This document shows positions 1 to 22,814 of a DNA stretch of 22,893 nucleotides, in pieces; position 1 is the stretch's first letter; each line of letters begins with the position of its first letter. Both the position numbers and the translations under genes were made by a program. Location of the stretch: IMG/VR virus record IMGVR_UViG_3300033141_006080, positions 1 to 22,893 of that record; one strand, written 5' to 3'. The notes beneath the pieces were generated by a model. The model saw only the letters and a list, made by a program, of their open reading frames with translations, did not search any database and was not told where the DNA came from. The DNA comes from a virus.

Positions 1-3000
1 CACCGCTAAGCCGATCACTACCCAATGCCCTTTCGTAGAACAACGCCCCTTGATCCCATTGGCCATCCGCAAGCTGGTACTTGTCTTCCAGCCAAATCTT
101 GAGCGCGGGGTCCATGCCACGCTTTACGTTGATATAGGGGGGATTGCCCACCGCGGCATCGAAGCCGGCTGCACCGAGGCGTTCGATCCTTTGCTCCGAT
201 GCCTCAGAGGGCCCGTAGAAGACCTCCGGGAACTCAAGTTCCCAGTGGAAGAATCGCCTCTCATCGGCGGCGGCAAGAGTTTGCTCAACGACCTTCCTGT
301 CCCATTCGGTGAGGCCCTTCTTGGTCTTGGGATCGCTCAGCCATGCTTCGACCTCCGGGCTCGTCAGGAATTGCATCGCCGGGTCGAACGGCTTCCCCTT
401 CTTTCCGGACGCCTTCTGCGGCTCGTTGCCGAACCAGCGGCTGGTGTACACGTCCAGAATGCGTTTGAACGGGGCGAGGGCGTCGGCGGCCTTGCGATAC
501 TCCCGCCGGCTCTCCTGGACCTGGGCGCTCGTCACGTCCGAGAGTTCCCCGACGTGCCGCATCAGGTCCGTCGCCAGCATGAGGCCGGCGAAGCGGATGC
601 CGAGGAGGGCCGTTTCGCCGCTCTCCAGCGCCTCGCTCACCTCGGCGACGGTGGCGCCGATCAGGCTGTTGCCGCACTTGACGTGGTGATCCAGGAACGA
701 CAGGGGCGCCCCCAGGGTGAAGCAGTCGAGCCACAGGCTGACCTTCGCGAGTTCCACGGCCATGGGGTTTAAGTCCACACCGTAGATGCAGCGTTTCAGG
801 ACGTGGCGCTTCAGGAGGTTTACGTCGGTCAGTTTCGACGGGTCGATGGAAACGCCCTGGCGTTCCACGTCGTCGAGGATCGTTTGGCGCGTCTCCTCGA
901 GGTAAGCCGACACCGGGTTCCAGGGGAAGGCGTGGAGAAAGTCGAGCATGCGGTCGGTGATGAAGTCCACGGCCTCGACGAGGAAGTGCCCCGAACCCAT
1001 GGCCGGGTCGAGGACCTTGACGTCGAAGAGTTCCGGGATGACCTCGTTGCGTCCCTTGAGGTCGGCCTGGGCGGGGTTCTTTTCGGGCAGGCCCTTCTTG
1101 CGATGGGCCTCCTGCTGCTTGAAGAACGCCTGCCGCTTCTGCTGGGCGTCGCGGATGAGCGGGCGGACGGCCTCGAACTTCTCTTCGAGGACCGGCCCGA
1201 CGGTGTGCTCGACGATGTACTCGACGATGTAGTCAGGGGTGTAGTACGAGCCGGTGGCCTTGCGTTCGCGCTTGTCGTTTTCGAGGTAGACCTGGCCCTT
1301 GCGGACAACCTTGCCGTCGCGCTCGGCGCGGGTTTTCTGGCGGTCCGTGAGGTTGCGGAACGGCTCGAAGACCTCGCGGCCCTTGGTCTTCCTGACGCCG
1401 AGTTTCCTGTCCGCGATGCGGAGTTTGAATTCCAGGAGCCCCTCGTAGATGGAGCCCAGGTGGCGGACGCCGAGGGACTTGTAGTCCAGCCGGACGAGGT
1501 CCTGGCGCTTGGGGTCCGGGTCGCGGGCCAGCAGGTCGATGGCGCGGGCCAGGTAGCGGTCCGGCACCTTGTGGGCATTGAGGAAGCGGGCATTGTCGGC
1601 CTCGGGGGTGTGGTCGTCGTCGCTCGGCTGCGTGATGAACAGGCCGCCGTTGTAGAACGGGACGTTGACGGTGGGGTCGCCCCGGTCCACGGCCGCGAAG
1701 AGCCGCATGAGACGGTCGTAAAGATCGTAGGAGTCATCGGAGTAGCGGCGCTGGAGTTTTCCGGCGACCTCGTCGGCGATGGGTCCGGCGGCCTCGGCGA
1801 TTTCGCCCTTCAGTTTGGAGAGGCTGATCTCGTAGTAGCCGCGCGTTTCGCGGACGGGCAGGAGGTCGCGCGACTCGGCGTAGAGCAGGAAGAGGAGCCG
1901 GTACAGCAGCGTGAGGGTGCCCTGGAAGACCGCGTCCAGGCGCTCCTGGGGGAGTTCCGCGTCGGCGCCCTCGTTCTCGCGAATGTACGCGATGAACCCC
2001 TCGGCGAGGTGCGGGAAGATGTCGACAAACACCCGTTCCTTGAGGCGCTGGCCGAGTTCCTTGGCGTACTCCTCGCTCTCGGCCAGCAACTGGTCGAGGA
2101 AGCAGAGGGTCTGTTCCTTGCCATCGCGGGTGACGGTGTGCGGCTCGAAAGCCTGGCGGCGGAAGAGGAGCCAGAAGTAGCGGAAGGCGTCGGCCGGGCC
2201 GCCGGCGTGCGGGCCCGCGGCGGCGAGGACCTCCTCCAGGTCCACCTCGTAATAGTTGGTGGCCTTGGCGTGAGCGCGGGCGGAGTACAGCCGCCACGCC
2301 TTGCCGTTGGTGACGACGGCCCAGGAGACTTCGTTGCGCTCCAGGAGGCTGACGACGACGAAGTTGGGGTTCTCGTCGGGCGTTTCGGTGTCGCGGCGGT
2401 CGTCCTTGCCGTCGAGCGACCGGCCCCAGGGGTACGTGAGGCAGACGGCGAGGGGGGTGTCGCCGTCGTCGGGCGAGAGGAGGCGGTAGTCGGGCTCGGC
2501 GGCTTCGCTCTTGGCCTTCTTGCCCGGCTTGAAGGAGAACCCGAGCGCGTCGAACACTGGTTCCAGCAGATCCGACCGGACCCGCGCCTCTGGTTCGCCT
2601 GCGAACTTGGAGGATGCCTCCTGGTACAGATCGCGAAACGCCATGTAGGTGGGCTTCGGGTCTTCCGCCCATATGTCCCGCTCACGGAGGCGTTCCAGCA
2701 GGTAGTAGTCCGAGAAGAGCGCCCGGTTGTTGAAGAACTCCTCGGACCACTCCGCAATCGTGTAGGCCGACAACAGTTTGTCGTACTGGGCCAGTGGGTC
2801 GGCCTCGGTGTACGTGAAGCGCCGTAGGACGCGAAGGTGGACGCGGGCAGGCTTGCGGCGCTCAACCGTCAGCATCCGTGGCCGCACGGCGACCTGGCGC
2901 TGGCCGATGGTCTTTGGGGCGGCCGCCGCGGTGGGCAAGTACTTCTCGACCAGGACAAAATCGAGGCGCTCGTAGTCGCTCGTCAGGACGAGCAGGTAGT

Positions 3001-3283
3001 TGCCGGCCCGGTTTCGGAAGGCCCGTGCCAGCGCCCGCGTGTGTGTGATGGTGACGCTCTTGACCTCGAACAAGTAGACCTGAAGGAGGCCCTCCTGGTC
3101 GGCGATCAACTCGATCCGGTCGATGGGACGCGCGGTCCCTTCGGCCGTGATGCCGAGGTTCGCGGGCGTCTGTTGCGTCCGCGCATCCGCATGGTAGCCA
3201 AGCCTGGCGAAGAGCCCGGCTACGGCATCCACATTTGCGAGGTCTTGAACATCTTTGGCCGTCAGTTCGAAGTCGAACTTCAC
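1..3283 (-). CDS. Eco57I-type adenine-specific DNA methylase / type IIG-like restriction-modification protein (3' end beyond window)
   Basis: The frame is open for about 1094 codons from a GTG at 3283 and leaves the window at base 1, so the C-terminus is missing. GAGG at 3290-3293, six bases upstream, supports this start. The methylase core is clear: the SAM-binding motif DPAMGSGHF lies around residue 762 (bases near 1000), preceded by a GSYYTPDYIVEYIV segment typical of N6-adenine methylases. The catalytic NPPY motif starts at residue 1047 (near base 145). An N-terminal domain has EVK at residues 73-75 after an acidic region, which is compatible with a PD-(D/E)XK nuclease. Together these suggest a single-chain restriction-modification enzyme that methylates adenine and may also cut. 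The specificity domain would lie in the missing part. It has its own upstream gap and a candidate promoter, so it is probably not part of the phage operon. A BREX or DISARM methylase is an alternative; no partner genes of those systems are visible. Confidence 0.85.
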   Translation of the reverse strand, partial: MKFDFELTAKDVQDLANVDAVAGLFARLGYHADARTQQTPANLGITAEGTARPIDRIELIADQEGLLQVYLFEVKSVTITHTRALARAFRNRAGNYLLVLTSDYERLDFVLVEKYLPTAAAAPKTIGQRQVAVRPRMLTVERRKPARVHLRVLRRFTYTEADPLAQYDKLLSAYTIAEWSEEFFNNRALFSDYYLLERLRERDIWAEDPKPTYMAFRDLYQEASSKFAGEPEARVRSDLLEPVFDALGFSFKPGKKAKSEAAEPDYRLLSPDDGDTPLAVCLTYPWGRSLDGKDDRRDTETPDENPNFVVVSLLERNEVSWAVVTNGKAWRLYSARAHAKATNYYEVDLEEVLAAAGPHAGGPADAFRYFWLLFRRQAFEPHTVTRDGKEQTLCFLDQLLAESEEYAKELGQRLKERVFVDIFPHLAEGFIAYIRENEGADAELPQERLDAVFQGTLTLLYRLLFLLYAESRDLLPVRETRGYYEISLSKLKGEIAEAAGPIADEVAGKLQRRYSDDSYDLYDRLMRLFAAVDRGDPTVNVPFYNGGLFITQPSDDDHTPEADNARFLNAHKVPDRYLARAIDLLARDPDPKRQDLVRLDYKSLGVRHLGSIYEGLLEFKLRIADRKLGVRKTKGREVFEPFRNLTDRQKTRAERDGKVVRKGQVYLENDKRERKATGSYYTPDYIVEYIVEHTVGPVLEEKFEAVRPLIRDAQQKRQAFFKQQEAHRKKGLPEKNPAQADLKGRNEVIPELFDVKVLDPAMGSGHFLVEAVDFITDRMLDFLHAFPWNPVSAYLEETRQTILDDVERQGVSIDPSKLTDVNLLKRHVLKRCIYGVDLNPMAVELAKVSLWLDCFTLGAPLSFLDHHVKCGNSLIGATVAEVSEALESGETALLGIRFAGLMLATDLMRHVGELSDVTSAQVQESRREYRKAADALAPFKRILDVYTSRWFGNEPQKASGKKGKPFDPAMQFLTSPEVEAWLSDPKTKKGLTEWDRKVVEQTLAAADERRFFHWELEFPEVFYGPSEASEQRIERLGAAGFDAAVGNPPYINVKRGMDPALKIWLEDKYQLADGQWDQGALFYERALGSDRLSG

Positions 3284-6521: not shown

Positions 6522-8891
6522 TCACGACGCGAAGGTCATGTCCACCTTGAGGCCCCGTTCCAGGCGGCGGCGCATCTGGTCGGTGTTCTCGGCCGTCTTC
6601 TCGGCGGCCTTGGCCGTCCGCTCGGCCGTGGACTTGCCGCCGAAGGCCCGTTCAACGAAGGCGCTGAACGTCCCGCGCGTGCTGATGGTCCGCTCGGCCG
6701 CCTTCTGGACGCGAGCGCCGAGGCTGGCGAGGCTCATCTTCACCTGCGAGAGGAAGTCCTGCGGTTCCTTCAGTTCGCCGGGACCGCCAGGCCCCTCGCC
6801 CGTCTCAAGCGCCTCACGCTTGCGGCGGGCCTCCGCGAGCGCCTCCTCCCACGCCTGACGGGCCTCGTCGAGTTCGCCCTTGGTGACCGCGACCGCGGCG
6901 TCATGCTCGGACTTGATGGCGTCGAGGGCCTCGCGATGCTTGGCGCCGATGCCGGCGAGCTCTTCGTCGCGTTCGGCCTCGACCGCCTGGACGCGGGCCT
7001 TCTCTTCTCGCTCGATGCCGGCGAGTTTAGCGTCCGTCGTGTCGATGACGGCCCGGCGCTCGCGGTTCACGCGGTCGATGAAGGCCTTCTTCTCGGCCTC
7101 GTACGCTGGGGCCGTAATCTGGCCGCGCTCGTAGCGGGCCGTGATCTCGGCCGCCTCGCGCCTGTGCCGCCACTTCATGAACTTCAGTTGGCCTACCCCA
7201 GAGAACACGGCGAAGACGGTCTTCACGGTCCCCATCGTCTCGTGCCAGACGCGCTTGACGTGCGAGGCGAGCTGCACCCACAGGGCCTGGACGCCGTAGA
7301 AGGCGTCGGTCGCGACCTTCAAGAACCAGCCCTTGAAGTCGGCCCAGATGGTCTTGAGCCACCCGACGCCCTTCTGCCAGGCCATTTTCAGGCTGAGCCA
7401 GAGAATCTTGGCGGCCAGGCCGAAGTCGCCGGCGGCGAGGGCATCCTTGATGCCACCGAATGCGCGGCCGGCGAAGTCGGCAAGGGCCGCGAACTTCTGC
7501 TTCAGCCACGCGACGGCCTTGCCCATGGCGCCGCTTGCGTGCAGGAAGTACGCGCCCAGGGCCGCCACGGCGGTGATCACGAGACCGATGGGCGAGACGA
7601 TGGCCCCCAGGACCGCGAGAACGGTGCTCAGCGCCGTCCCGACGACGCCTGCAATCCCGGCCAGGCCACCGAATGCCGCACCCAGGGCGCTGACGGCGGT
7701 GCCGACGACGACCAGGGCCGCGCCGACCGCACCCACGACAGCCAGGACCTTCGCGATGGTCCGCACGATCTCCTTATTTGCCGAGAGCCAGTCGATGACG
7801 ATGCCGGCGAATCGTTTCACCTGGGCCGCGGCCTTGGCGAGCGGCTCGGCGAGCGCTTCGCCGACGACCGACAGGGCCGCCAGGCCCGCCTGCTTGAGCT
7901 GCGCGAAGGCGTGGCCGAGCGTCGCGGTCATCTTCCGGTACGCTTCCTCGGTCGCCCCGGCGCCCGAGCGCATGCGCTCGATGTCACCCGTGAAGCCTTC
8001 GAGGTTCTTAAGGGCCGGGATCACCCCACGAAGCGCCCGGATGTTCGGGAACAGCCGCGCCACGGCCTCGGGCGGCAAGGTGGCGATCCGCTCAAAGACC
8101 CCGGCGAGGCCCTCGGACTTGAGCGTGGCCGTACTCATCTCGAAGCCGAGTTCGCGTGCATACTCGGCGGCCTCGCCTGTGGGCTTAAGGAACGTGGCAA
8201 TGATGCGGTTTACGGCGGTGACTGCGTTCTCGGTCCGAACGCCGGAGCGCGTGAGCGTCGCCAGCGCCGCGCCGAGTTCATCCAGTCCCACGCCGCCGGC
8301 AGCGGCCGTCGAGGCCACGAGGCCAATCGAGGGGGCGAGTTCGGCGAAGGTGGTCTTTCCGCGCTTGACCACGGAGAAGAGGACGTCCGAGACGAGCCCC
8401 GCGTGCTCGGCCGCCAGGCCGTAAGAGTTAAGGACGGTCGTGATGGCATCGGCGGCGGTCTTCGTGTCGGTCATGCCCGCCTTGGCCGCCCGAACCGCGA
8501 CGGCCAGAACGTCGAGGGCCTTCTCCGCCGGCACGCTCGCGGAGAGGATATCGTAGAGGCCGCCGGCGAGGGCCTCGGTCGATTCACCGAAGTCGACGCT
8601 CATCCGCCGCACCGCGCTTCGGAACCGGTCCATGTGGACCGCCGGATCGTCAAGCATCGTCGAGACGGCCGCCATCTGCTGCTCGAAGTCGGCAAAGACC
8701 TTCGCGCCGGCGATGAACGGTGTGGCGAGGGCGGCGCTTACGCCCATGAGGCGCGTGCCGACGTTCTGCAGCCCCGCGCCGAAGGCTTTCATCTTCTTCT
8801 CGGCGCGCTTCAGGCCCCGCGAGAGCCGGTCATTGAGGACCAGTTCCACGTAGGCCCGACCCGCCTTGATGGCGCCCGCCGATGCGGCCAC
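6522..8891 (-). CDS. Phage tail tape measure protein (TP901-type)
   Basis: At 789 residues this is the largest gene of the phage block. It starts at GTG 8891, with GAGGAG upstream and the previous stop four bases away. Residues about 20-330 carry the TP901-type core, including ALATPFIAGAKVFADFEQQM and repeated helical segments. Residues about 360-470 contain strongly hydrophobic Ala/Val/Gly-rich helices (IAGVVGTALSTVLAVLGAIV) that would form the membrane-active part. Residues about 560-710 are charged, heptad-like coiled coil rich in Glu, Ala, Arg and Lys. Tape measure proteins set tail length and occupy the tail lumen, then help DNA enter the cell. The size implies a long, siphovirus-like tail, by analogy only. 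Confidence 0.92.
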   Translation of the reverse strand: MAASAGAIKAGRAYVELVLNDRLSRGLKRAEKKMKAFGAGLQNVGTRLMGVSAALATPFIAGAKVFADFEQQMAAVSTMLDDPAVHMDRFRSAVRRMSVDFGESTEALAGGLYDILSASVPAEKALDVLAVAVRAAKAGMTDTKTAADAITTVLNSYGLAAEHAGLVSDVLFSVVKRGKTTFAELAPSIGLVASTAAAGGVGLDELGAALATLTRSGVRTENAVTAVNRIIATFLKPTGEAAEYARELGFEMSTATLKSEGLAGVFERIATLPPEAVARLFPNIRALRGVIPALKNLEGFTGDIERMRSGAGATEEAYRKMTATLGHAFAQLKQAGLAALSVVGEALAEPLAKAAAQVKRFAGIVIDWLSANKEIVRTIAKVLAVVGAVGAALVVVGTAVSALGAAFGGLAGIAGVVGTALSTVLAVLGAIVSPIGLVITAVAALGAYFLHASGAMGKAVAWLKQKFAALADFAGRAFGGIKDALAAGDFGLAAKILWLSLKMAWQKGVGWLKTIWADFKGWFLKVATDAFYGVQALWVQLASHVKRVWHETMGTVKTVFAVFSGVGQLKFMKWRHRREAAEITARYERGQITAPAYEAEKKAFIDRVNRERRAVIDTTDAKLAGIEREEKARVQAVEAERDEELAGIGAKHREALDAIKSEHDAAVAVTKGELDEARQAWEEALAEARRKREALETGEGPGGPGELKEPQDFLSQVKMSLASLGARVQKAAERTISTRGTFSAFVERAFGGKSTAERTAKAAEKTAENTDQMRRRLERGLKVDMTFAS

Positions 8892-10950: not shown

Positions 10951-11403
10951 TTACGGCACCGTGATCTCTTTCCACTCCGGCGGGTAGGTCGGGTTGTAGG
11001 CGGGCTTCGCGGTCACGCTGACGCTGATGCCCTCTTCCAGGGGCTCGGAGCGGGAGAACGAGATGATCGAGAAGTCGGCCCACAGGCCCTGGCTCCCGTC
11101 GGCGTCCACCGGGCCGTCCATGATCGCCAGGGCGATGGGGTTGCCGCCAAAGTAGGCGTCCTTGATCGCCGTGAACCCCGCGTCCTCGGTGTCCCAGACC
11201 ATCTCGAACTCGACCGAGGCGTCCTTGAGGGTCCCCTCGGTGGCCCGCCAGCCGTTGTTGGCCCGGGTCGTCAGGTCCGCCTCACCCTTCTCCAGGCTGA
11301 GCGTCAGGTCGCGGACGTTCGTCAGTTCGGTCCACGTCGGGGCCGCGCTCATCCCCGCCGCGTCGTAATACAGGCGGACCTCCATGCCGAGTTTCATGGT
11401 CAT
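10951..11403 (-). CDS. Major tail tube protein
   Basis: A 150-residue protein starting at ATG 11403 with AAGGAG eight bases upstream; a second ATG at 11397 is possible. The sequence MKLGMEVRLYYDAAGMSAAPTW followed by WTELTNVRDLTLSLEKGEAD matches the beta-strand-rich start of siphovirus tail tube proteins. The middle (ASVEFEMVWDTEDAGFTAI, GNPIALAIMDG) and the end (GISVSVTAKPAYN) continue the same fold pattern. The protein would polymerise into hexameric rings around the tape measure protein. It is the first tail gene after the accessory cassette and precedes the chaperone pair, which fits canonical order. Confidence 0.85.
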   Translation of the reverse strand: MTMKLGMEVRLYYDAAGMSAAPTWTELTNVRDLTLSLEKGEADLTTRANNGWRATEGTLKDASVEFEMVWDTEDAGFTAIKDAYFGGNPIALAIMDGPVDADGSQGLWADFSIISFSRSEPLEEGISVSVTAKPAYNPTYPPEWKEITVP

Positions 11404-11822: not shown

Positions 11823-12035
11823 TCAGTCCTTCCCGAACTTCACGGCCTTGAGGAGCACCGCGTGGAACAGGTAGTACAGGGCCATGTTCACGACGTTCCA
11901 CGCCGCCGACGCGCCCAGGGCCAGGCAAAACTCGCCCGTCACCGGCCACAGCAACAGCGTCTGGCACGTCACGATGAACAGCCGGTACGCCAGGCCGCCG
12001 ACGAGCAGCCGACGCCAGCGGATTCTGCGCCACAT
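11823..12035 (-). CDS. DUF2061-like small membrane protein
   Basis: A 70-residue, strongly hydrophobic protein with two membrane segments (about 10-30 and 36-62) and a basic N-terminus (MWRRIRWRR). The ATG at 12035 shares one base with the TGA of the upstream gene. The pattern WRxLxxxxxYRxxxxxxQTxxLWxxTGxxxxAxxxxxxxxVxxMxLYYLFH resembles the DUF2061 family. I recall that DUF2061 is sometimes associated or fused with APS kinases, which would explain its place next to the CysC-like gene; this should be checked. Function is unknown. A role in anchoring or transport for the sulfation cassette is inference. Confidence 0.65.
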   Translation of the reverse strand: MWRRIRWRRLLVGGLAYRLFIVTCQTLLLWPVTGEFCLALGASAAWNVVNMALYYLFHAVLLKAVKFGKD

Positions 12036-12475
12036 CAGCAACGGCGCCTCCGCAGGGCCCTGGCCGAGATGCTCTCCGTGTCCGAGTCAAGCCGAATCTC
12101 GCGGATGCCCCAGCCCACGTCGCGGCCATAGCAGACCTCGTTGATGTCCACCGGCAGCGCCATGACGGTCAGCCGACCCATGTCCATCTCGGGGCCGAAC
12201 CGCCGGCGGAACATCCGGAGGCGGGCCTCGTCGTCGTGCGGGTTGTCCGCGTCGGTTGCGCCGGGGCGCATCAGCACGAGCACCTTCTTGCCCTTGTCGA
12301 GGACCGTCCGGATCAGGGCCTCGTGGCCGTTGTGGAGCGGCTGCCACCGGCCGATGAAGACGCTCGCCTTCGACCGGTCGGCCGGCATCGCCCCGCCGCG
12401 CCCGCGCCGCATCGCGTGGAGAAGCCAGGCCGTCGCCCAGCCCGACGCGAACGCGATGACGAAGCAGGCGATCAT
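12035..12475 (-). CDS. Membrane-anchored HxGH nucleotidyltransferase (NMNAT / ATP-sulfurylase superfamily)
   Basis: A 146-residue protein. The ATG at 12475 overlaps the upstream TGA (ATGA), so this start is preferred over the internal ATG at 12388, which would remove the membrane segment. Residues 1-22 form one hydrophobic helix followed by MRRGRGG, giving a cytoplasmic catalytic domain by the positive-inside rule. GRWQPLHNGH at 42-51 is the signature of nucleotidyltransferases that move AMP or CMP, and SISARALR at 135-142 matches the C-terminal ISxTxIR motif. The closest recalled form is NadM/NadR-type NMN adenylyltransferase. ATP sulfurylase belongs to the same superfamily, and the CysC-like and sulfotransferase neighbours make adenylyl transfer to sulfate worth considering. 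The substrate cannot be read from the sequence. Confidence 0.8.
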   Translation of the reverse strand: MIACFVIAFASGWATAWLLHAMRRGRGGAMPADRSKASVFIGRWQPLHNGHEALIRTVLDKGKKVLVLMRPGATDADNPHDDEARLRMFRRRFGPEMDMGRLTVMALPVDINEVCYGRDVGWGIREIRLDSDTESISARALRRRRC

Positions 12476-14226
12476 GCCGTGAGAACCTCCGTGCCCTCGA
12501 TGTGCCCGAAGACCTGCTCCGAGAGGGCCACCAAGTCCGGGTCGTTCTTGAACGCGGCCTTGAACCAGGGCACGTCATTGTAGGCCTCCCAGCGCCGGAA
12601 ATGCCGGTCGTCGGTCACGTGCTCCGCCCCGGCCGCCTGGCCGTCGAAGGAACTGCCGCCGCCCTGCGCGGGAACCTGCGGCAAGGCCGCGTCGGTCCGG
12701 TCCGGCAGACCGAGCGCCTCGGCCACGGTGTCGCGGTAGGCGGCGTCGATGAGCCAAGCGTTGTAACTGACCGCCACCTCGCCCGCGGCCGCGGCGTCCC
12801 GGATACGGATGAACTCCCGGGCGTGCTCCTTCCACAGGGCCACCCAGCCGTCCAGCTGCGAAGGCGTCTTGTCCTTCGGCCACCGGCCCATCGCCGCCTG
12901 GCTGGCGAGGGTGTTGAACGGGTCGCGCAGGAGCAGGACCGTCTTGTGCGCACCCGCCACGACGTTCCCCACGGCCGCCGCGTCGGCCGGCGGCGCGCTT
13001 TCATACGAGTACAGGACCAGGTCCTGCCCCTGGCCCACGACGTCCTCGAACCGGTGACGCCCGGCGATGGACGGGAGCGGGGCGGTGACCGCCTTGCGGT
13101 CGATGTCCCGGCCGTCGAGTGTCTTGCCGTGGTTCACGTCGTTGAAGAAGAGGACTTTCGGGCTCCCGGCCTGGGACGCCACCCAGTTCATCAGCGGGTG
13201 CCCGCCCGACCGCCGCATGTGGGCGACGCAGAGGCTCCGGGCGGTCTCGACGAAGGACTGCTTTTCCACGAGCCCGCTCCTGGAGTAGAGGCGGATGGCC
13301 CGCACCACGTCCCGCGGCCAGATCATCCGCATGCAGCGAGGCACGACCAGGTCGTCGGCCACCTGGACGGGGGCGACGCAGCGCTCCTCGGGCGCGTCGC
13401 TCGGATGACCGTCGCCGACCGGCTGGCACCGCATCCGCCAGCACCCGCCCTGGACGTTGCACGGCAGGGCCCCCGTCGTGTGCAGGAAGCGGTGCGTCGG
13501 GTAGGCCTCCCAGTGGGCCGGCTCGCGGCCCCCGGCCACGACGACGCAGGGGCGGTAGTGGCCATCCCTGGGCGGCACGGCGGCCGCCAGGTGCATCGGG
13601 AACGTCACCGGGCACACCACGCCCTCGGCGTGATACACGAGCCGGACCAGTTGCCGGAGGTCCGTCTGCCCCACGAGGTTCACGACGCCCTCCAAGGGCA
13701 GGTGCCAGTCGCCCGCCGCACCGATCTGGACGAACTTGATACGGCCCCGAAGCCGGTTCACGACCTTCTGATAGAACGCGGGGTTCCACCACTTGCACGT
13801 CATGTCGTACTTGCCGCCGGCGGCGACGAGCCAGTAGGGGCCGGTCCATCCCGCCTCCTCGGCCGGGCTCGGCGCGGTCTTCTCGGCCTCGGAGAGGTGG
13901 ATATCGCCGTGGAACGCCCCGGCGGGGATTTTTAGGCCGAGTTTGGCGGCCGCGTCCATGCGGAAGGCGTGGATGAAGTGGTACGGAATCCAGTTCGCCT
14001 TCGTCGCCAGCGGCGCCTCGACCAGGACCGTCTCCACGTCCGGCGCCGCCTCCTCCAGCGGCGTCAGGTACGGATTGTTTTCCCACAAGGCCGGCGCGGG
14101 CGTGCGGACGTCCAGCGCCCAGCCGTCGCGGTACGTGGCCGTATAGAGGTCGCGGACGGTGGCCGTCAGCAGCACCACGTCGCCGGGCGACAGGTCGTCG
14201 GAGAGTTTGAGGATGACCTTGCGCAT
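12472..14226 (-). CDS. Fusion of GT9-like glycosyltransferase and sulfotransferase domains
   Basis: A 584-residue protein from ATG 14226. Residues about 1-320 resemble GT9 (heptosyltransferase-type GT-B) enzymes: WLVAAGGKYDMTCKWWNP at 132-149, IKFVQIGAAGDWHLP at 163-177, and FPMHLAAAVP at 209-218 in the donor-binding region. A cysteine-rich patch follows (Cys256, 262, 267, 283, 298). Residues about 330-584 look like a sulfotransferase: RRSGGHPLMNWV at 338-349 fits the 5'-phosphosulfate loop, with VLFFNDVNHGKT after it, and LLLRDPFNTLAS at 431-442 fits the 3'-phosphate site of PAPS. The protein may add a sugar and then a sulfate to an acceptor. There is no signal peptide, so it acts in the cytoplasm. 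The acceptor is unknown. It is placed in a late phage operon, next to a CysC-like gene. Confidence 0.8.
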   Translation of the reverse strand: MRKVILKLSDDLSPGDVVLLTATVRDLYTATYRDGWALDVRTPAPALWENNPYLTPLEEAAPDVETVLVEAPLATKANWIPYHFIHAFRMDAAAKLGLKIPAGAFHGDIHLSEAEKTAPSPAEEAGWTGPYWLVAAGGKYDMTCKWWNPAFYQKVVNRLRGRIKFVQIGAAGDWHLPLEGVVNLVGQTDLRQLVRLVYHAEGVVCPVTFPMHLAAAVPPRDGHYRPCVVVAGGREPAHWEAYPTHRFLHTTGALPCNVQGGCWRMRCQPVGDGHPSDAPEERCVAPVQVADDLVVPRCMRMIWPRDVVRAIRLYSRSGLVEKQSFVETARSLCVAHMRRSGGHPLMNWVASQAGSPKVLFFNDVNHGKTLDGRDIDRKAVTAPLPSIAGRHRFEDVVGQGQDLVLYSYESAPPADAAAVGNVVAGAHKTVLLLRDPFNTLASQAAMGRWPKDKTPSQLDGWVALWKEHAREFIRIRDAAAAGEVAVSYNAWLIDAAYRDTVAEALGLPDRTDAALPQVPAQGGGSSFDGQAAGAEHVTDDRHFRRWEAYNDVPWFKAAFKNDPDLVALSEQVFGHIEGTEVLTA

Positions 14227-14239
14227 GGGGTGGTCTCTA

Positions 14240-14872
14240 TCAGGTCTCGTACATCACCACGACGCCGTCGCCGCCGGTGGCCGCGGTCAGGTCGAAGTCG
14301 TAGAGGTTGCAGCACGGCGGCAGTTCGACGCTCGCGCCGGGCGCGAGGATCCAGTAGTGCGTCTCGCCTTTCTCGGAGATGTACACGTTGCCGGTGTTGG
14401 CGCCGGGCAGACCGCCGCCCGGCGACCCGCCGCCGTAGGCCGACCCCGGCTTCTGCGCCTGCACCCAGGCCCGCACGTAGGGGGTCGATGAGGTGGCCAG
14501 CGACACGGGGGTCTCGTTGATGGCCGTCGCGCGCGAGCGGAACCCCGGCGTCCGCGCGCCGGCCGTGTGCTCCTTGACGATGGTGGCCAGGCGGCCGCCT
14601 TCGCGGGCCGGGTCGGCCGGGAGGTTGTCGGTCTTCGCCTTGATGGCCGCCAGGTTCCCGTCCTCGGTGGCCGGGTCGATCTTCGCGTCAGCCGTGTCCA
14701 GCAGGTGCACGTCGCCGATATCGACGTCCGGGTCGAACGTCAGGCCCTCGACCTTCGTTTTCAGGGCCCCGGAATCAATGAGCGCCGCCAAGGCCTCGGT
14801 CGCGGCACGCACCAGGTCCAGCGTCTCCTCGTGCGCCAGTCGCGGATGCAGCGGGTCGCGTTCGCCGGCCAT
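14240..14872 (-). CDS. Phage structural protein of unknown function (neck/tail region)
   Basis: A 210-residue protein starting at ATG 14872, ten bases after the previous stop. The first 115 residues are helical with two segments, DGNLAAIKAKTDNLPADP and REGGRLATIVKEH, of a kind recalled from phage structural proteins. A Gly-rich linker (YGGGSPGGGLPG) joins this to a C-terminal beta-type domain (TGNVYISEKGETHYWILAPG). I recognise no named family. The gene sits between the tail terminator-like gene and the glycosyl/sulfotransferase fusion. It could be a virion surface protein and, speculatively, the acceptor of that modification. Confidence 0.65.
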   Translation of the reverse strand: MAGERDPLHPRLAHEETLDLVRAATEALAALIDSGALKTKVEGLTFDPDVDIGDVHLLDTADAKIDPATEDGNLAAIKAKTDNLPADPAREGGRLATIVKEHTAGARTPGFRSRATAINETPVSLATSSTPYVRAWVQAQKPGSAYGGGSPGGGLPGANTGNVYISEKGETHYWILAPGASVELPPCCNLYDFDLTAATGGDGVVVMYET

Positions 14873-14882
14873 AGGGGTCCCT

Positions 14883-15311
14883 CTATCGCACCACGCGGAA
14901 CGTCAGGGTCAGGACGCTCGTCAGCTGCCGGAGTTCGTCCAGGTGCTCGGTCGCATAGAGCGGCACGTGTTCGGTCCGGACCCACACCGCCTCGGGCTGC
15001 GCCGTCAGGCGCCTGAGGCGGAAGAGGTCGCCGATCTCCTCCACGAGGCCCACCAGCGGGTCGATCTCGGAAGCGTCGGCGCTCGTGAGCTTCTTCTGGA
15101 CCGCCACGTCGACCTCGTACTCGTGGGCATTGCGGCCGCGCGAGCCGGCGACGACCGTCACGGCCTTCGGCACGACCGTCACGTGCAGCGCCGCCATGTC
15201 CTTGAGGTCGAAGAGCGGCCGGTAATGCCGCTCGGCCGAGACGGCCTGCGAGAGTCCCGCGCCGTTCAGTTCCGTCACGACCGCGTCCGCAATGTCCATA
15301 AGGACTGCCAT
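14883..15311 (-). CDS. Tail terminator-like protein
   Basis: A 142-residue protein from ATG 15311, which overlaps the end of the small membrane gene by a few bases. The sequence begins with a helix (MDIADAVVTELNGAG), then beta strands (LHVTVVPKAVTVV, HEYEVDVAVQKKL), a helix (DPLVGLVEEIGDLFRL) and a final strand (LRQLTSVLTLTFRVVR). This alpha-beta order matches tail terminator and neck proteins that cap the tail tube before head joining. The role is assigned from pattern and position, not from a diagnostic motif. Confidence 0.65.
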   Translation of the reverse strand: MAVLMDIADAVVTELNGAGLSQAVSAERHYRPLFDLKDMAALHVTVVPKAVTVVAGSRGRNAHEYEVDVAVQKKLTSADASEIDPLVGLVEEIGDLFRLRRLTAQPEAVWVRTEHVPLYATEHLDELRQLTSVLTLTFRVVR

Positions 15312-16304: not shown

Positions 16305-18479
16305 TCACGCCTCGCCCTTGCTCTTGATGCCGCCCTTCGGGTCCTGCAGCGCGACGCCGAAGTCGTGGTAGCCCCGCATCTGGACGCCCAGGACGTTGAA
16401 ATCCGCCTCGGCCGTCTCGATGGTCGGCGACTCCTGACCGTTCAGGAACGCGACCTCGATGACCGGCAGGTCCGCCGGGTCGGCCAGGAGATACCACGCC
16501 TTGGCGCTCGCGCCGGTGTACTGGGTGTTCGCCAGGTAGCGGCTGACCTCGGCCCGGAACTTACCCTGGTGCGGGTTGGCGATGGGGTACTTCGTGTCAG
16601 CCGTCGTGTCCCGGATCTCCAGGCTCTTCTGCAGCGTGGTCCCGATGGCCGAGAGCGCCGTCGGCACCAGGAGCACCTGCGGCATGATTCCGATGGGCTT
16701 GCCGTCGCCGTCCGTCTGCTCCAGAAACTTGACCTCCGCCTTCGTCAGGCCGTCCACGGTCAGGGCCGTGTCGGCGCCCGTGATGTAGTTCTTGTTCGCG
16801 GTCTTGAAGAAGCCGGAGTTGTCCAGGAACACGGTCCAGAAGACGTCATTGATCTTCAGGCCCGACCCGCGACCGAGTTTGCGCGGCACGGTCGTGATCG
16901 CGCCGAGGTCGTCGTTGATGATGTCCCGCCGGTCGATGGAAAGGAGCAGACCGTACGTGTCGGCCTTGTTGGTGTAGGACTCCTGGCCCAGGGTCCCGTG
17001 CTTCAGTTCCCCGCCCGGAGCGACCGGCTGGTAGGTGTCGGCGCCGACGAGGCGATAACTCGTGACGGTCTTGAAGTCAGAGACGTTGCGGACGGCGCAG
17101 ATGTTCCGCCAGACCCGCTCGACGCTGAAGAAGCCGTCCAAGAGGAACTTGTTGGCGACGTTCGAGAGGATGCCGCCGATGTCAATGGTCGAGAAGGCCG
17201 CCTGGAGGCCCGTGCCGAAGGCGAACCGAAGGACGGCGCGGCTGTCACGGAAGTTTCGGCCCTCGTAGCCGTTTGCCCAAGCCGCCTCGAGCAGGAGTTC
17301 CTGGAGGCCAACGCCGCCGCGGAAACGCTTGTCGGCCGCGTCCATGGCCTCCTCACCGTAGGCGGCCAGGACGTCGTCGCCTTTCAAGCCGCCCGTCAGC
17401 ATGCAGGCCGCCTCCAGGACCGTCCCGGTCATGGCGTTGGCCGGCACGTGCGCGGCGGGGGCCTTGGGCCGGTCGGCCCGAAGGACCTCCAGTTCCGTCC
17501 GCGTCACGTCCCACCCCTCGGCGATGGCCTTGGCGGCGATCTCGGAGTGGGCGTCGCCGCAGACCTTGCGCACGGCCGCGATCCGGCTCGTCTCGGCGGC
17601 GGCCTTCGCGCGGATGTCGGCGACCGGGTCGGCGGTGAGGTCCGCGTCGGCCGTGGCCGTCTGCGGCGCAGCAGCCTGGACAGGAGGCGCGCCAGCCTCC
17701 GTGTCAGGCTGCGTCTGCTCCTCGCCCCGGAGAGCCTCCTTGTCCTCAGCGCCCTCGGTGTCCTGGTCCCGTTTGGTCTCGATGCCTTCCATGGTTCCGT
17801 TCTCCTTGCTCGACGCCGCCACGCTGGCGCTCGTGGCCAGGTCGGCGCCCAGATCGACAAACGAGATTTCGCCCAGCGTCGCCCGGCGGACGACGTTGAC
17901 GGGCCCCTCGAACTTGCGGCCGTTGACCACTGCGGCCTGGCCGGCCTTGACGAACTCGAACTCTTCGACACTTGCCCCGATGGAGGTTTGCCAGGGGAAG
18001 CCGTTGCGGGCGCTCGCGACGATCTCCTTGGCCGCGGCCGTGTCGCGAGAGACCACGCCCATCGCCATGAGCCTCCCGTCCTCGACGCGGATGGCGTCGG
18101 TGTGGCCGACGCCGTTCGCCATGTCGTGGCCGAAGCGGATAGGCCGGTTCTGTGACGGGACCGCCAGGCCCGCAAGGTCCACCACCACCGGGAAGCGCCA
18201 CCCCGTGATCCGCATGGGGCCGCCCGTATAGGCCACCATCGTGAAGCGCGGCAGCCGGGGCTTCCCGTCGCTGCTAGCATTGGCCCCAGCCTCGATGGTG
18301 AGGGCCCCGGGCTCGCTGAAAAAGTTGAGGGCCGACGCGGCCCGCGCGTCCGCCTGGCGCTCGCACACCGCCCGGCGCTGGGCCGCGTCCGGGAACTCCC
18401 TGGCCATCACCGGGTCCGCCATGCAGCGGTCGATGAAGCGGTCGCGCTCTTCGCCGGACTTTCGCTCAGGCAGCGGCAC
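16305..18479 (-). CDS. Prohead protease / major capsid protein fusion
   Basis: The 724-residue frame is best started at GTG 18479: it has GAGGAGGAC upstream, overlaps the portal stop by 14 bases, and begins with PLPERKSGEERDRFIDRCM, followed by MAREFPDAAQRRAVC, a conserved opening in such fusions. A start at 18518 is possible but lies further into the portal gene. Residues about 45-220 hold the protease, with probable catalytic His118 (RFGHD) and Ser166 (WQTSIGAS). A Glu/Ala/Pro-rich linker follows at about 230-310 and resembles a scaffold. Residues about 320-724 are the capsid protein (LSNVANKFLLDGFFSVERVW; FNVLGVQMRGYHDFGVAL). The protease is expected to remove scaffold and itself during head maturation. 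A good internal start at 17792 may make a second, capsid-sized product. Confidence 0.92.
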   Translation of the reverse strand: MPLPERKSGEERDRFIDRCMADPVMAREFPDAAQRRAVCERQADARAASALNFFSEPGALTIEAGANASSDGKPRLPRFTMVAYTGGPMRITGWRFPVVVDLAGLAVPSQNRPIRFGHDMANGVGHTDAIRVEDGRLMAMGVVSRDTAAAKEIVASARNGFPWQTSIGASVEEFEFVKAGQAAVVNGRKFEGPVNVVRRATLGEISFVDLGADLATSASVAASSKENGTMEGIETKRDQDTEGAEDKEALRGEEQTQPDTEAGAPPVQAAAPQTATADADLTADPVADIRAKAAAETSRIAAVRKVCGDAHSEIAAKAIAEGWDVTRTELEVLRADRPKAPAAHVPANAMTGTVLEAACMLTGGLKGDDVLAAYGEEAMDAADKRFRGGVGLQELLLEAAWANGYEGRNFRDSRAVLRFAFGTGLQAAFSTIDIGGILSNVANKFLLDGFFSVERVWRNICAVRNVSDFKTVTSYRLVGADTYQPVAPGGELKHGTLGQESYTNKADTYGLLLSIDRRDIINDDLGAITTVPRKLGRGSGLKINDVFWTVFLDNSGFFKTANKNYITGADTALTVDGLTKAEVKFLEQTDGDGKPIGIMPQVLLVPTALSAIGTTLQKSLEIRDTTADTKYPIANPHQGKFRAEVSRYLANTQYTGASAKAWYLLADPADLPVIEVAFLNGQESPTIETAEADFNVLGVQMRGYHDFGVALQDPKGGIKSKGEA
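17790..17807 (-). promoter_or_regulatory. Internal ribosome site and ATG inside the protease-capsid gene
   Basis: Within the fusion gene AAGGAG (17802-17807) lies nine bases before an in-frame ATG at 17792. Initiation there would make a 495-residue product that starts at the acidic linker (MEGIETKRDQD) and contains scaffold-like linker plus capsid, without the protease. Nested starts of this type exist in lambda (C/Nu3). Here it is inferred only from spacing and motif, and the bases also encode Lys-Glu in the long product. Confidence 0.5.
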
Positions 18480-19953
18480 GGTCGTCCTCCTCGTCCTCGC
18501 GCTCCCGTTCGTCCTCAACCGGCGCCTGCGGCAGGGCGGGGGCGGTCGCGAGGCCCAGTTCCTTCATGAGCGAGACCTCCTTGGCCCGCTGCCGCAGTTC
18601 CACCTCCCAGTCCTTACCGGCCCGGGCGTACTCCGTGGCCAGCGTCGTCGTGTGGCTGGCCAAGCGCTGGGCCTGGGCGTTCGCCTCCTTCTGCGGGTCC
18701 ACGTGCTCGCGACCGTCCCAGAACCACTGGTGTGGCCAGTCCTCCGGGCCCGCCAGTCCGAAGACCTTCGCCGCCTCCGCGAGCCACGCCTCCAGGATGC
18801 GGTCGAGGACCGCGTCCTCCAGGTGCGACTGCTCCACGCGGATGCACTTGAAATAGGTCTGGTGGTCGAGGCGGCCGGAGGCGTAGTTGTAGCCCGATGA
18901 GTCGCAGAGCGCAACGTTCTTGGGCATCGAGAACGGCCGCGCGGCCTCGGCGACAACGCCCGTGCAGAACTCCGAGAAGGTCGTCGTCGGCTGCTCGGCC
19001 TTGACCTGGGACGGCTCCCACCCCTCCGGCGTGAAGACCGCGAGGTTCGGCTCGAGGTCCATTGTCGCCAGGGGCTCGACCTCGGCCGCCTCGCCGCCAG
19101 CCGGGGCGGTGGTCTTCATGAAGAGGGCGATGTTGGCCGCGGTCCGCGCCGCGTCGAGGACCGCTTGGCGGTACTGCCGCAACTGCGCGAACAGCGGGAG
19201 CGACGGCGTGAGTTCCGGGATGCCGCGGCTCTGGCCCGGCCGGTCCGCACGGAACCAGTGGATCACGGAGACGGCCGGCACACGGTCGTACTCCATGCCG
19301 AGCGCCGCCTTGCCGCCGCCGGGATGGGCCTTCAGGACGTGGTACTCCTTGGGGTTGCCGAACTCGTCGAAGACGATGCCGTCCACTTGGCTTCGCTGCG
19401 CTTCGCCATGGCGGGCCGGGCCTGCCCCGGCGGAGCCCAAGGCGAAGCCGGGCGTGGTCACCTGGTCGGCCTCGATGAGTCGAACGTCCAGCGTGACCGG
19501 GTGCGGCAGGTTGCCGTTCGAGTAGAGGAGCGCGAACGCTTCGCCGTCCGACGCCCGGGCCATCCGCATCGTGCGGAGTTTTTCGGGAAGGCGCACCGCC
19601 TTGGCCCACCGGGCGAACTCGCGCTCGACGGCCCCGTTCACCTCGGCATCGTCCGTGAGCACCTGGAGGCGCGGGCCGGTGCCGATGACGTCGTTGGCAA
19701 GCGTCAGGACGATGCCCTTGGCGTAGCAGTTGTTGGCGACCTCGTAGCGGGACCGGCTGCGGAGGATACGGCGGACCTCGGCGCTCGCCGCGGCGTCGGC
19801 CGAGAGGAGGTCGGCATTCGCCCAATGGCGGCGGTTGTCGGGCGTGGTCTGGGCGGCGTCGAACTTGGCGCGGATGATCCGCCAGGCCTGCGGCGCCCTG
19901 CCGGCCGCGCGCCTCGACGCCTCGAACCACGTCCTCGGGTTCCACCACGCCAT
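18466..19953 (-). CDS. Phage portal protein (lambda GpB family)
   Basis: A 495-residue protein. The ATG at 19953 begins MAWWNPRTWFEASRR and lies two bases after the stop of the upstream small gene. The signature segment around residues 65-95 (RYEVANNCYAKGIVLTLANDVIGTG) is the conserved core of lambda-type portals. Further family features are DGEAFALLYSN, the SRGIPELTPSLPLFAQLRQY segment and GYNYASGRLDHQTYFK. The C-terminus is acidic and Arg-rich. The portal forms the dodecameric ring through which DNA is packaged and to which the neck attaches. It overlaps the capsid fusion start by 14 bases. No terminase precedes it, which is unusual. Confidence 0.93.
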   Translation of the reverse strand: MAWWNPRTWFEASRRAAGRAPQAWRIIRAKFDAAQTTPDNRRHWANADLLSADAAASAEVRRILRSRSRYEVANNCYAKGIVLTLANDVIGTGPRLQVLTDDAEVNGAVEREFARWAKAVRLPEKLRTMRMARASDGEAFALLYSNGNLPHPVTLDVRLIEADQVTTPGFALGSAGAGPARHGEAQRSQVDGIVFDEFGNPKEYHVLKAHPGGGKAALGMEYDRVPAVSVIHWFRADRPGQSRGIPELTPSLPLFAQLRQYRQAVLDAARTAANIALFMKTTAPAGGEAAEVEPLATMDLEPNLAVFTPEGWEPSQVKAEQPTTTFSEFCTGVVAEAARPFSMPKNVALCDSSGYNYASGRLDHQTYFKCIRVEQSHLEDAVLDRILEAWLAEAAKVFGLAGPEDWPHQWFWDGREHVDPQKEANAQAQRLASHTTTLATEYARAGKDWEVELRQRAKEVSLMKELGLATAPALPQAPVEDEREREDEEDDRAAA

Positions 19954-20423: not shown

Positions 20424-22736
20424 TCACACGGTACGCCAGCTGTGCCCCGCCGGGTCAAAGACCTCATGAATCTCGTGGGATGCCATTTCCAGAAAGTCTT
20501 CGGCAAGCTCAATTGCGTCAAGCTTGGGGATTGCCCCAGGGCGCTTGTCAAACCTCTCCAGGTGGAGACATCGCGGACAGCCGTTTTCACAATCACACTT
20601 CTTCGTGATGGCGATACCATGTTTCAGCACTTCCGGCCACACCTCGAAGAGCTTCTCCGCTAGACCTATGCCGCCGGGCACTGTCTCGTAGATGTAAGCC
20701 GTTGGAGGCAACTTGCCGCTGTACAGACTCCCGATGTCGAATCGGTCACACGGTATTATGAACGGCATCCCGGTTCTGATGAAGTACCGCACCAACGAAA
20801 GCCGCTCTCCGACACGCGCCATACTCGCCCCGCTGCCTTCTTCAATGCTCAACCAGAACCCCTGGACGGATCTCCTCACCGCGGTCGGATTGTCGAGCCG
20901 GACCTCATCCAGCACTTCGTCCGTTCGGTCGTCGATCCGCCTGTATCCAGCGAAGTTGTCATAGATCGTCAGAACCCCGAAATAGCACGCCGTTGCAGAC
21001 GCGTACCGACGTCCCTTGAGAATGGTGCTCTCCGTCACGACCGAGTACGTCAGAGCCTCTGTTCTCTCATTTGGGTTGGCGTCCGCAAGCGCAATCTCAT
21101 CTGTGCCATGCGACTCAACACGGTACGACTTGCCGAAGTGACTGTAGACCGCCCCGACATAGGCCTCTCGCTGGACTTGTTCGCCGGAAATCGTGCCTAT
21201 TTCACGGCCCTTGTAGATAAGCCTGTAGTTTGTACCATACGAGTTTCTGATGGGAGTCTGGTAGTGCGGAAGGTAGCGGCCCGCCCTAATGGGCCGGAAG
21301 GACTTCTGCTGTTCCATAACGGCCTGCCAGAGGTGCTCGCCCAACACCTCTCTATCCTCCGTTCCTACTGGAGTGGCCCTTTCGTACAGCAAACACGGCA
21401 CATGCTTTGCGGTGAGTTCGTCATTGTCCACGCCAACCATAATCTCATCGAGCGGTTTGTCCAGGAACGCGTCAAGGTTCTCTGCATAGAACTGGTCAAC
21501 GGGGTTGTCCATTGCGAAGAACAACACGTAGGCTCGCGCCTCCCAGCTGCGCCCCGCCCTCCCTATTCGTTGCCATGCCGACATGACGCTGTCCGGGAAT
21601 CCGGCTAGAATGCAGGCGTCGAGGCGACCAATATCAATGCCTATCTCCAAGGCATTTGTCGAGAACACGACCTGATACTGCCCCGACCGCAAACCTGCCT
21701 CTGTCTCCCGCCGCTCATCTGGCATGTAGCCGGCACGGTACGGGACCACTTTCTCCGGGTCCAGATCGAAATCCCTCGCTTCTCGCCGCGCGACTCGCGC
21801 CGCTTCTTCCGCGAACTTGCGAGTCGGGCAAAACGCCACCACAGAGAGGCCCTGGCTCATGCATGCCAAGGCAGCCCGGGCAATCCGCAAGAGGAAAATT
21901 CGATAGTACTTGAAGGGCGGCAAGTCTGGATTCACGAAGATGAAGGTCCGTGTGGGTCTGAAGCTGCCTTTGCATTCGACCAGGACAGGCCTTCGCCCGG
22001 TCAGGCGGTATGCGTGTTCCCCCGGATTGGCACAGGTCGCAGATGCAAGAACCAGCTGGCAGTGAGAGCCCAGCTCACGGAGTTTCCGGAGGAACCTCCT
22101 GGCCAGAAGTGCGAAATTCGTCCCGAAGTAGCCCCTGTACTCATGGATCTCATCGATCACCAGATACCGGAGGTTGCGGAGGTAGTCTTCCCACTTGTCC
22201 CAGTGTGCCAGGAAGGACTGGTGAAGCATCTCAGGATTGGTGAGAAGCACGTGGGGCGGATTGTTCCGCAGGAGCGACCGATGTTCGTGAGGGGTATCGC
22301 CGTCATACAGCCAGCTATCAATCTTGTGACCTCCAAGGCCTTCACAGAGCCTGTTCAACTGCAGCCGCTGGTCATTGGCCAATGCCTTCATCGGGTACAG
22401 CATCAATGCCCTCTTGCCGGGATTCTCGAGCAAGTCGCCGACTATAGGGATATTGAAACATAGCGTCTTTCCGCTTGCAGTCGGCGAGACGACGACAACG
22501 TCTTCGCCTCGCCGAATCCTTTCAATGGAATCTGCTTGGTGCCTGTAGAGCTGCGAGATGCCTAGGCTCTCCAGCCGCGACACAAGGCATGCCGGTAAGT
22601 CTTTGAGGGCTGAGGAAGTTGCGTACTCCGGCTCAATGCCACCCAGGGTCTTGATGTGCAACGAGTCCCGATGCTCACCATCACCCTTGTCGCGCAGGGC
22701 GTCGAAGAGACGGAGCTTTTCTAGAAGTGCCTCCAT
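20424..22736 (-). CDS. DEAD/DEAH-box helicase with C-terminal Zn-binding DUF1998/MZB domain (MrfA/YprA-like)
   Basis: A 770-residue protein from ATG 22736, with GGGGGTGG just upstream; a TTG at 22766 would add ten residues. Motifs in order: Q-type LYRHQ at about 63-67, Walker A SPTASGKT at 84-91, DEIH at 195-198, then SAT in LASATCANPG, STNALEIGIDIG in the second RecA domain, and QRIGRAGR. The C-terminal part contains YIYETVPGGIGLAEKLF and the cysteine cluster CDCENGCPRC, diagnostic of the DUF1998/MZB module. B. subtilis MrfA, of similar length and architecture, acts in mitomycin-type DNA damage repair. A defence role such as DISARM DrmA is possible, but no DrmB or DrmC is visible. Base composition is noticeably less GC-rich than the phage genes, suggesting separate origin. 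Confidence 0.92.
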   Translation of the reverse strand: MEALLEKLRLFDALRDKGDGEHRDSLHIKTLGGIEPEYATSSALKDLPACLVSRLESLGISQLYRHQADSIERIRRGEDVVVVSPTASGKTLCFNIPIVGDLLENPGKRALMLYPMKALANDQRLQLNRLCEGLGGHKIDSWLYDGDTPHEHRSLLRNNPPHVLLTNPEMLHQSFLAHWDKWEDYLRNLRYLVIDEIHEYRGYFGTNFALLARRFLRKLRELGSHCQLVLASATCANPGEHAYRLTGRRPVLVECKGSFRPTRTFIFVNPDLPPFKYYRIFLLRIARAALACMSQGLSVVAFCPTRKFAEEAARVARREARDFDLDPEKVVPYRAGYMPDERRETEAGLRSGQYQVVFSTNALEIGIDIGRLDACILAGFPDSVMSAWQRIGRAGRSWEARAYVLFFAMDNPVDQFYAENLDAFLDKPLDEIMVGVDNDELTAKHVPCLLYERATPVGTEDREVLGEHLWQAVMEQQKSFRPIRAGRYLPHYQTPIRNSYGTNYRLIYKGREIGTISGEQVQREAYVGAVYSHFGKSYRVESHGTDEIALADANPNERTEALTYSVVTESTILKGRRYASATACYFGVLTIYDNFAGYRRIDDRTDEVLDEVRLDNPTAVRRSVQGFWLSIEEGSGASMARVGERLSLVRYFIRTGMPFIIPCDRFDIGSLYSGKLPPTAYIYETVPGGIGLAEKLFEVWPEVLKHGIAITKKCDCENGCPRCLHLERFDKRPGAIPKLDAIELAEDFLEMASHEIHEVFDPAGHSWRTV

Positions 22737-22814
22737 TGTCCACCCCCAAGGGTCTCGGGCTGCCAAGCAACCTGCCCAAGACTAGTGCAACGCCTCATAA
22801 ATTCCGGTACAGTC

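Follow-up and report, generated by a model that had tools for sequence, protein, structure and literature searches.

The stretch of DNA analysed here, which we call the window, comprises 22,893 nucleotides from a virus (IMG/VR record IMGVR_UViG_3300033141_006080, positions 1 to 22,893). Among its same-strand virion genes (portal, PF05136; capsid, PF25209; tail tube, PF06199) lies a gene whose product joins a GT9-like glycosyltransferase domain to a domain with a predicted sulfotransferase fold (Table 1). A sequence-only reading of this DNA had proposed such a two-domain protein at 12472-14226, and an open frame running from ATG to stop with no internal stops occupies exactly that interval, on the minus strand, a detail absent from that reading; its positions for RRSGGH (338-343), RDPFNTLAS (434-442) and the cysteines (between 256 and 298) are also accurate. 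It was right to place the gene in a virion operon, but did not mention that the gene is part of a cassette, in which the fusion is followed in order by a HIGH-type nucleotidyltransferase (NT), a small membrane protein and an APS-kinase-like protein.

Table 1. Features of the fusion gene, its cassette and the surrounding slot (window coordinates).
Feature	Position	Strand	Basis
Left slot border, conserved tail-completion-like gene	14883..15311	minus	In 58 loci including the window's own
Slot protein upstream of fusion, candidate virion decoration protein	14240..14872	minus	Relatives beside fusion
GT9-sulfotransferase fusion gene	12472..14226	minus	584 aa; counterparts in L137, L158, L179
N-terminal GT9-like GT-B domain, residues 1-318	13273..14226	minus	PF01075; AlphaFold2 model; Foldseek
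Asp16, candidate catalytic base, GD motif	14179..14181	minus	34/34 homologues covering position
Candidate Cys4 finger C256-C262-C283-C298, within GT9 domain	13333..13461	minus	Conservation; TibC likeness
C-terminal domain of predicted sulfotransferase fold, RSGxH family, residues 330-584	12475..13239	minus	Fold, motifs
RRSGGH 338-343, candidate 5'-phosphosulfate-binding (PSB) loop	13198..13215	minus	R339, G341, H343 35/35
Glu409, candidate catalytic base (putative role)	13000..13002	minus	E in 33/35; end of strand 84-92
RDPFNTLAS 434-442, candidate 3'-phosphate-binding motif (Arg434, Ser442)	12901..12927	minus	R434 35/35, S442 34/35
HIGH-superfamily nucleotidyltransferase (NT), 146 aa	12035..12475	minus	PF01467 above cut-off
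Small predicted membrane protein	11823..12041	minus	DUF2061 weak, 18.3 bits, below cut-off 23.1
Compact APS-kinase-like protein, 133 aa	11419..11820	minus	PF01583; PDB 8a8h, 3.6e-12
Right slot border, tail tube protein	10951..11403	minus	PF06199, phrog_1407

The fusion protein and its two domains

Searches of IMG/VR and INPHARED with the whole fusion sequence returned no matches, and family members were reached only via motif patterns followed by profile search. A survey for the same architecture, which had been suggested earlier, found three further phage contigs (L137, L158 and L179) whose two-domain protein is 48-49% identical to that of the window across its length; because the L137 and L158 cassettes are near-identical, these represent about two independent fusion sequences besides the window. 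In L099/L163 and in a 548-kb contig (L100/L176/L220), the two domains are encoded by separate adjacent genes, GT9 first, which overlap by a few dozen bases. Recurrence in related contigs, together with the adjacent overlapping genes of these two other phages, rules out the sequencing or assembly error that the earlier reading had allowed for, and domains that are fused in certain phages but encoded side by side in others are a classic sign of joint function.

The N-terminal half almost certainly adopts a GT9 fold, as judged from its structure model. PF01075 (GT9) matches above its curated cut-off (27.7 against 22 bits), partially, over residues 181-217 only, and the AlphaFold2 model, built from an alignment of 38 phage homologues, contains the whole GT9 fold (pLDDT 93.9, pTM 0.91), so that the earlier call of a GT9-like domain is upheld by a partial sequence match and a complete GT-B/GT9 heptosyltransferase fold. 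The best 30 Foldseek matches of this model in the PDB are GT9 heptosyltransferases or TibC (3tov, 1.8e-10; 1psw, 4.8e-10; TibC 4rap, 3.2e-9), and the profile of the GT9 alignment also matches 1psw by sequence (E 6e-5). The motif GGKxDxTxKWW is present in 53 phage contigs, and Asp16 would by its position be the equivalent of TibC Asp110 and WaaC Asp13. That GT9 enzymes normally build lipopolysaccharide (LPS) cores, as the sequence-only reading had it, agrees with the matches to LPS heptosyltransferase folds but overlooks the TibC/AAH branch, which glycosylates protein serines and is the more relevant precedent for a GT9 enzyme in a virion operon.

Cysteines occur at residues 256, 262, 267, 283 and 298 of the fusion protein, a patch previously taken for a linker. 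Four of them are conserved among GT9 homologues (C256 in 38/38, C262 in 37/38, C283 in 38/38 and C298 in 36/36), and since most of the 38 homologues have no C-terminal domain, these cysteines belong to the GT9 domain, where their order and position resemble the iron finger of TibC; a linker role is thereby ruled out. In the window's protein the second cysteine is lost (N257). Other members of the finger-bearing branch are fused to different C-terminal parts, some of which read like glycosyltransferases, and this variety of partners marks the GT9 domain as a module.

The C-terminal domain found no match in Pfam, NCBIfam, PHROG or PDB sequence searches. Profile-to-PDB searches of its family found no sulfotransferase, a direct profile comparison with two sulfotransferases of L116 was negative, and none of the scanned phage and bacterial relatives matches a sulfotransferase model; with sequence-level links to named sulfotransferase families thus absent, membership of the superfamily rests on fold and motifs. 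The domain model (pLDDT 77.7, pTM 0.81, with low confidence at its residues 51-81) has sulfotransferases as all of its top 43 structural matches in the PDB (E 6e-5, probability 0.97-1.00), at TM-scores of about 0.4-0.57, which, being near 0.5, indicate the same fold rather than close kinship. In BFVD an uncharacterised protein of Hokovirus matches best, and several named viral sulfotransferases come next. On this model a sulfotransferase fold for the C-terminal half is highly probable, and the domain proposed from the sequence is backed by a conserved family and the predicted fold, though without a sequence-model match.

Relatives of this domain, the RSGxH family, occur in phages and in bacteria (Planctomycetota, Verrucomicrobia, cyanobacteria, Rhodobacteraceae-type genomes and others). 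Across an alignment of 35 unfused-family members from both, R339, G341, H343, W348, R434, N438 and R545 are invariant, and S442, E409, Y497 and R498 nearly so. In the domain model, RRSGGH forms the loop between the first strand (10-19) and helix 25-35, and RDPFNTLAS lies at a strand-helix junction (strand 107-116, then helix 119-131); both motifs therefore fall in the expected loops of the predicted fold, at the two presumed PAPS-phosphate positions, in keeping with the earlier suggestion that they line the PAPS pocket. Arg434 and Ser442, eight residues apart, we take to be the counterpart of the SULT 3'-phosphate motif. PAPS is probably the donor, and sulfate chemistry is likely. Fusion relatives carry RSAGH or RAAGH at the PSB loop, which accordingly tolerates change.

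Within 4 kb of phage RSGxH genes, in a tally made without a control set, the genes are mostly methyltransferases, glycosyltransferases and nucleotide-sugar enzymes, and Sulfotransfer_3 matches come to 3/114. In L116 the RSGxH gene is flanked by two PF13469 sulfotransferases and lies 2 kb from a full APS kinase. APS kinase scores above cut-off in 4 of 26 RSGxH phage records and in none of 46 GT9-only records; three of the four belong to one lineage, that of the fusion, so the association is suggestive only, and APS kinase as a general companion of RSGxH genes was set aside as weak. Given this rarity, most RSGxH phages would draw PAPS from the host or work with something different. The GT9 alignment matches one of nine bacterial RSGxH genomes, weakly. 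Separately, another sulfotransferase-glycosyltransferase fusion was seen in a 341-kb phage (L086/L101), whose 1007-aa protein (L086:1600-4623) has an RSGxH domain at its start and Gly_transf_sug at its end.

Cassette, cargo slot and host

NT and the APS-kinase-like gene lie downstream of the fusion in all three relatives, in the same slot. The small membrane protein has no homologue in the cassettes of L137, L158 and L179, its place being taken by a CmcI-like O-methyltransferase gene (in L137 and L179 described as rhamnosyl-O-methyltransferase-like). The kinase is 74-75% identical in the three, scores 60.6 bits with PF01583 (cut-off 21.1), has a P-loop, and falls below the cut-off of the equivalog model TIGR00455 (58.2 against 138.7 bits); APS kinases are by far its closest relatives. 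Where the APS kinase consensus has DGD and KGLYK, the cassette protein reads DGA, has no KGLYK segment and is short at its C-terminus, and it retains the R-N and FxPTR motifs. NT is 40% identical to its relatives in L137/L158 and 39% identical to that in L179, with a conserved motif GRDVG[WY] (GRAVGW in L179). Its nearest solved structures in a PDB profile search are NMN adenylyltransferases, and as an ATP sulfurylase it scores 16.2 bits with PF01747, under the cut-off of 24.3; production of APS by NT is the weakest link in any reading in which the cassette supplies PAPS, which we put slightly short of an even chance. An APS-kinase-like P-loop domain fused to a HIGH-type nucleotidyltransferase, in the order found in PAPS synthetase, was also observed as phrog_10255 'kinase' in Casjensviridae-type phages (L082, L083 and L084).

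The slot between the tail-completion-like gene and the tail tube gene can be as short as about 30 bases or as long as 3,755, and the genes within it are unrelated; in relatives they encode fibre-like and beta-helix proteins, an aldo/keto reductase and thioredoxin-like proteins. None of 80 capsid relatives carries the fusion, NT or the kinase. As both length and contents vary, the cassette is best described as cargo that occupies a recurring site of variable content. The slot protein upstream of the fusion is 31-37% identical to relatives adjoining the fusion in L137, L158 and L179. In a second cluster, 12 related phages (L039, L036, L053 and others) encode in this slot a protein of about 280 aa whose sequence looks like that of a GT-A glycosyltransferase (VDRDM), although neither Pfam nor PHROG matches it.

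Relatives of the capsid protein were found in 50 of 392 Planctomycetota genomes, as prophages and at up to 79% identity; at a stricter limit they occur in 0/299 Pseudomonadota and in 9/241 Verrucomicrobiota, the latter at about 39% identity. From this distribution of sequence relatives the host is probably a Planctomycete. Elsewhere in the window, all on the minus strand, a single 737-aa frame (16305-18518) combines the capsid protein with a weakly prohead-protease-like region; a DEAD helicase with an MrfA zinc-binding domain (20424-22766) stands at the other end of the virion block; and a large Eco57I-type methylase (2-3283; best PADLOC match DISARM DrmMI, 1e-88) may be host flank or phage defence cargo.

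A proposed glycosylation and sulfation cassette

We propose, with a probability of roughly one half, that the locus is a self-supplied glycosylation and sulfation cassette of a tailed phage, acting on one or more virion proteins. A nucleotide donor would provide the sugar (by analogy a heptose) that the GT9-like domain transfers; PAPS would then provide a sulfuryl group, which the C-terminal domain would place on this sugar or on a neighbour, and NT and the APS-kinase-like protein would raise the supply of PAPS or of a similar 3'-phosphonucleotide donor. From what the computation establishes (both folds, motif conservation, the recurring fusion, and a conserved cassette and slot) we infer the catalysis, the donors, the order of the two steps and the acceptor. 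As acceptor, a virion protein encoded in this operon would be likeliest, the slot decoration protein and the tail tube being examples; that a virion protein is the acceptor at all we judge an even call. The arrangement is suggestive of a phage that adds chemical decoration to its own particle.

The slot protein of L137, L158 and L179 contains poly-Ser tracts, as does the C-terminus of the tail tube protein there (e.g. L137:1231-2067, 6655-7110), with serine runs 5 to 18 long and ends of the form SSSSSSA. By analogy such tracts would suit a TibC-like serine transferase; they are absent from the window, which has a Gly-rich stretch instead, so poly-Ser tails as acceptor are a lead only. A 772-aa frame with very long poly-Ser tracts was also seen in L080.

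Several observations count against a sulfation cassette, namely the missing sequence-level link to named sulfotransferase families, the altered PSB loop of the fusion relatives, C-terminal TM-scores of about 0.5 with a low-confidence stretch in the model, the scarcity of APS kinase among RSGxH phage records, the DGA motif and short C-terminus of the kinase, the resemblance of NT to NMN adenylyltransferases rather than to ATP sulfurylase, and the lack of poly-Ser tracts in the window. Its fullest version, a self-contained virion sulfation system in which two compact genes make PAPS (a new minimal HIGH-superfamily sulfurylase together with the 133-aa APS kinase) and a fusion of protein glycosyltransferase and sulfotransferase, the latter from a family not yet described, puts sulfated glycoproteins on the particle, is in our view unlikely.

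The strongest competing account, one with an appreciable though minority chance, is that NT and the kinase serve other ends, such as NAD salvage or the making of a sugar-nucleotide donor for the GT9 domain, and that the sulfotransferase domain uses host PAPS. It would explain why NT is closest to NMN adenylyltransferases, and the kinase-NT fusion of the Casjensviridae adjoins an NADAR gene, with no sulfotransferase seen nearby; however, the kinase is closest to APS kinases, and its two best-conserved neighbours across cassettes that have diverged by 48% are NT and the fusion.

We regard as rather improbable that the same architecture targets a host surface glycan, the phage or prophage remodelling the envelope (for example against superinfection), with the location among virion genes reflecting a mere cargo slot. 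That the slot is a general cargo site open to aldo/keto reductase and thioredoxin-like genes, that the cassette includes a small membrane protein and that the capsid relatives are prophages in Planctomycetota genomes would all fit. However, the slot genes are in line with the late virion genes on the same strand, so late expression is expected, when superinfection exclusion would be least useful, and a resemblance to tail fibre or beta-helix proteins is seen in many proteins of the slot.

Still less probable is that the C-terminal domain takes a different group from its 3'-phosphonucleotide donor and transfers that, after the manner of the Campylobacter phosphoramidate pathway, whose kinase Cj1415 is an APS kinase homologue. 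The parallel parts are a nucleotidyltransferase, an APS-kinase-like enzyme, a methyltransferase (in L137/L179) and a transferase, but neither a glutamine kinase (Cj1418) nor a hydrolase-like (Cj1417) gene was recognised in the cassette, and in L116 the RSGxH gene has genuine Pfam sulfotransferases and a full APS kinase as its neighbours. In Campylobacter, the nucleotidyltransferase Cj1416 and the 3'-kinase Cj1415 yield CDP-phosphoramidate 3'-phosphate (PMC11800397). A degenerate or chance fusion without two working domains, for which the altered PSB loops and the loss at N257 might speak, is very improbable given that key residues of both domains are retained at 48% identity across the fusions and that the arrangement recurs both fused and as neighbouring genes.

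The genetic surroundings of the proposed cassette suggest a specific, testable role for it, namely placing sulfated glycan on virions, and candidate genes for a donor pathway lie alongside. Two further groups emerge from the analysis: a widespread family of transferases for which Pfam has no model, with members in phages, in bacteria and perhaps in a giant virus, and a GT9 branch bearing the putative finger, which is used as a module and joined to many different C-terminal partners. Since Planctomycetes are well known to carry many sulfatases, sulfation of the particle would also have ecological interest for this group of hosts.

Comparison with known systems

With the GT9 LPS heptosyltransferases (WaaC, WaaF; 1psw, 3tov) the phage protein shares the GT-B fold, the PF01075 signature and the N-terminal GD-motif Asp; unlike them it has a conserved putative Cys4 finger and a fused second transferase, and is phage-encoded. 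With TibC/AAH (BAHT) it shares the GT9-type fold; its four conserved cysteines near the end of the C-lobe resemble the TibC finger, a likeness of order and position only, as the spacing is CX5CX20CX14C in the phage and CX2CX15CX11C in TibC. TibC binds a ferric ion on C339, C342, C358 and C370, which is required for assembly and activity, and heptosylates protein serines, not threonines (PMC4358343). The N-terminal beta-barrel of TibC (residues 1-97) is absent from the phage model, which begins directly with a Rossmann-type lobe, and for this reason we do not file the phage GT9 as a BAHT.

The C-terminal domain shares with SULT, TPST, StaL/Teg12 and Sulfotransfer_3 enzymes the predicted fold, the position of the PSB loop, the spacing of the R...S 3'-phosphate motif and a conserved Glu, but differs in that the RSGxH family has no detectable similarity to Pfam models and has motifs of its own (NW, NxW..YR, GSSFD and RW). 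The cassette kinase has PF01583, the P-loop and the R-N and FxPTR motifs in common with APS kinase and PAPS synthetase; unlike these, it is only 133 aa long with DGA for DGD and without the KGLYK segment, and its partner NT is not recognisable as an ATP sulfurylase.

In actinobacteriophages, a phage glycosyltransferase is thought to decorate the virion, and a methyltransferase is likewise described (cited in PMC13313380); that system differs in host phylum and enzyme, and the passage concerned mentions no sulfotransferase or donor-synthesis genes. Sulfotransferases in phage genomes have been reported before, with their role stated to be unclear (PMC10580990), and the phrase 'phage-encoded sulfotransferase' was not found in the literature searched. 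Phage sulfotransferases and virion glycosylation are thus already known, and what is new is that a fused enzyme, a transferase family not yet named and donor genes next door occur together.
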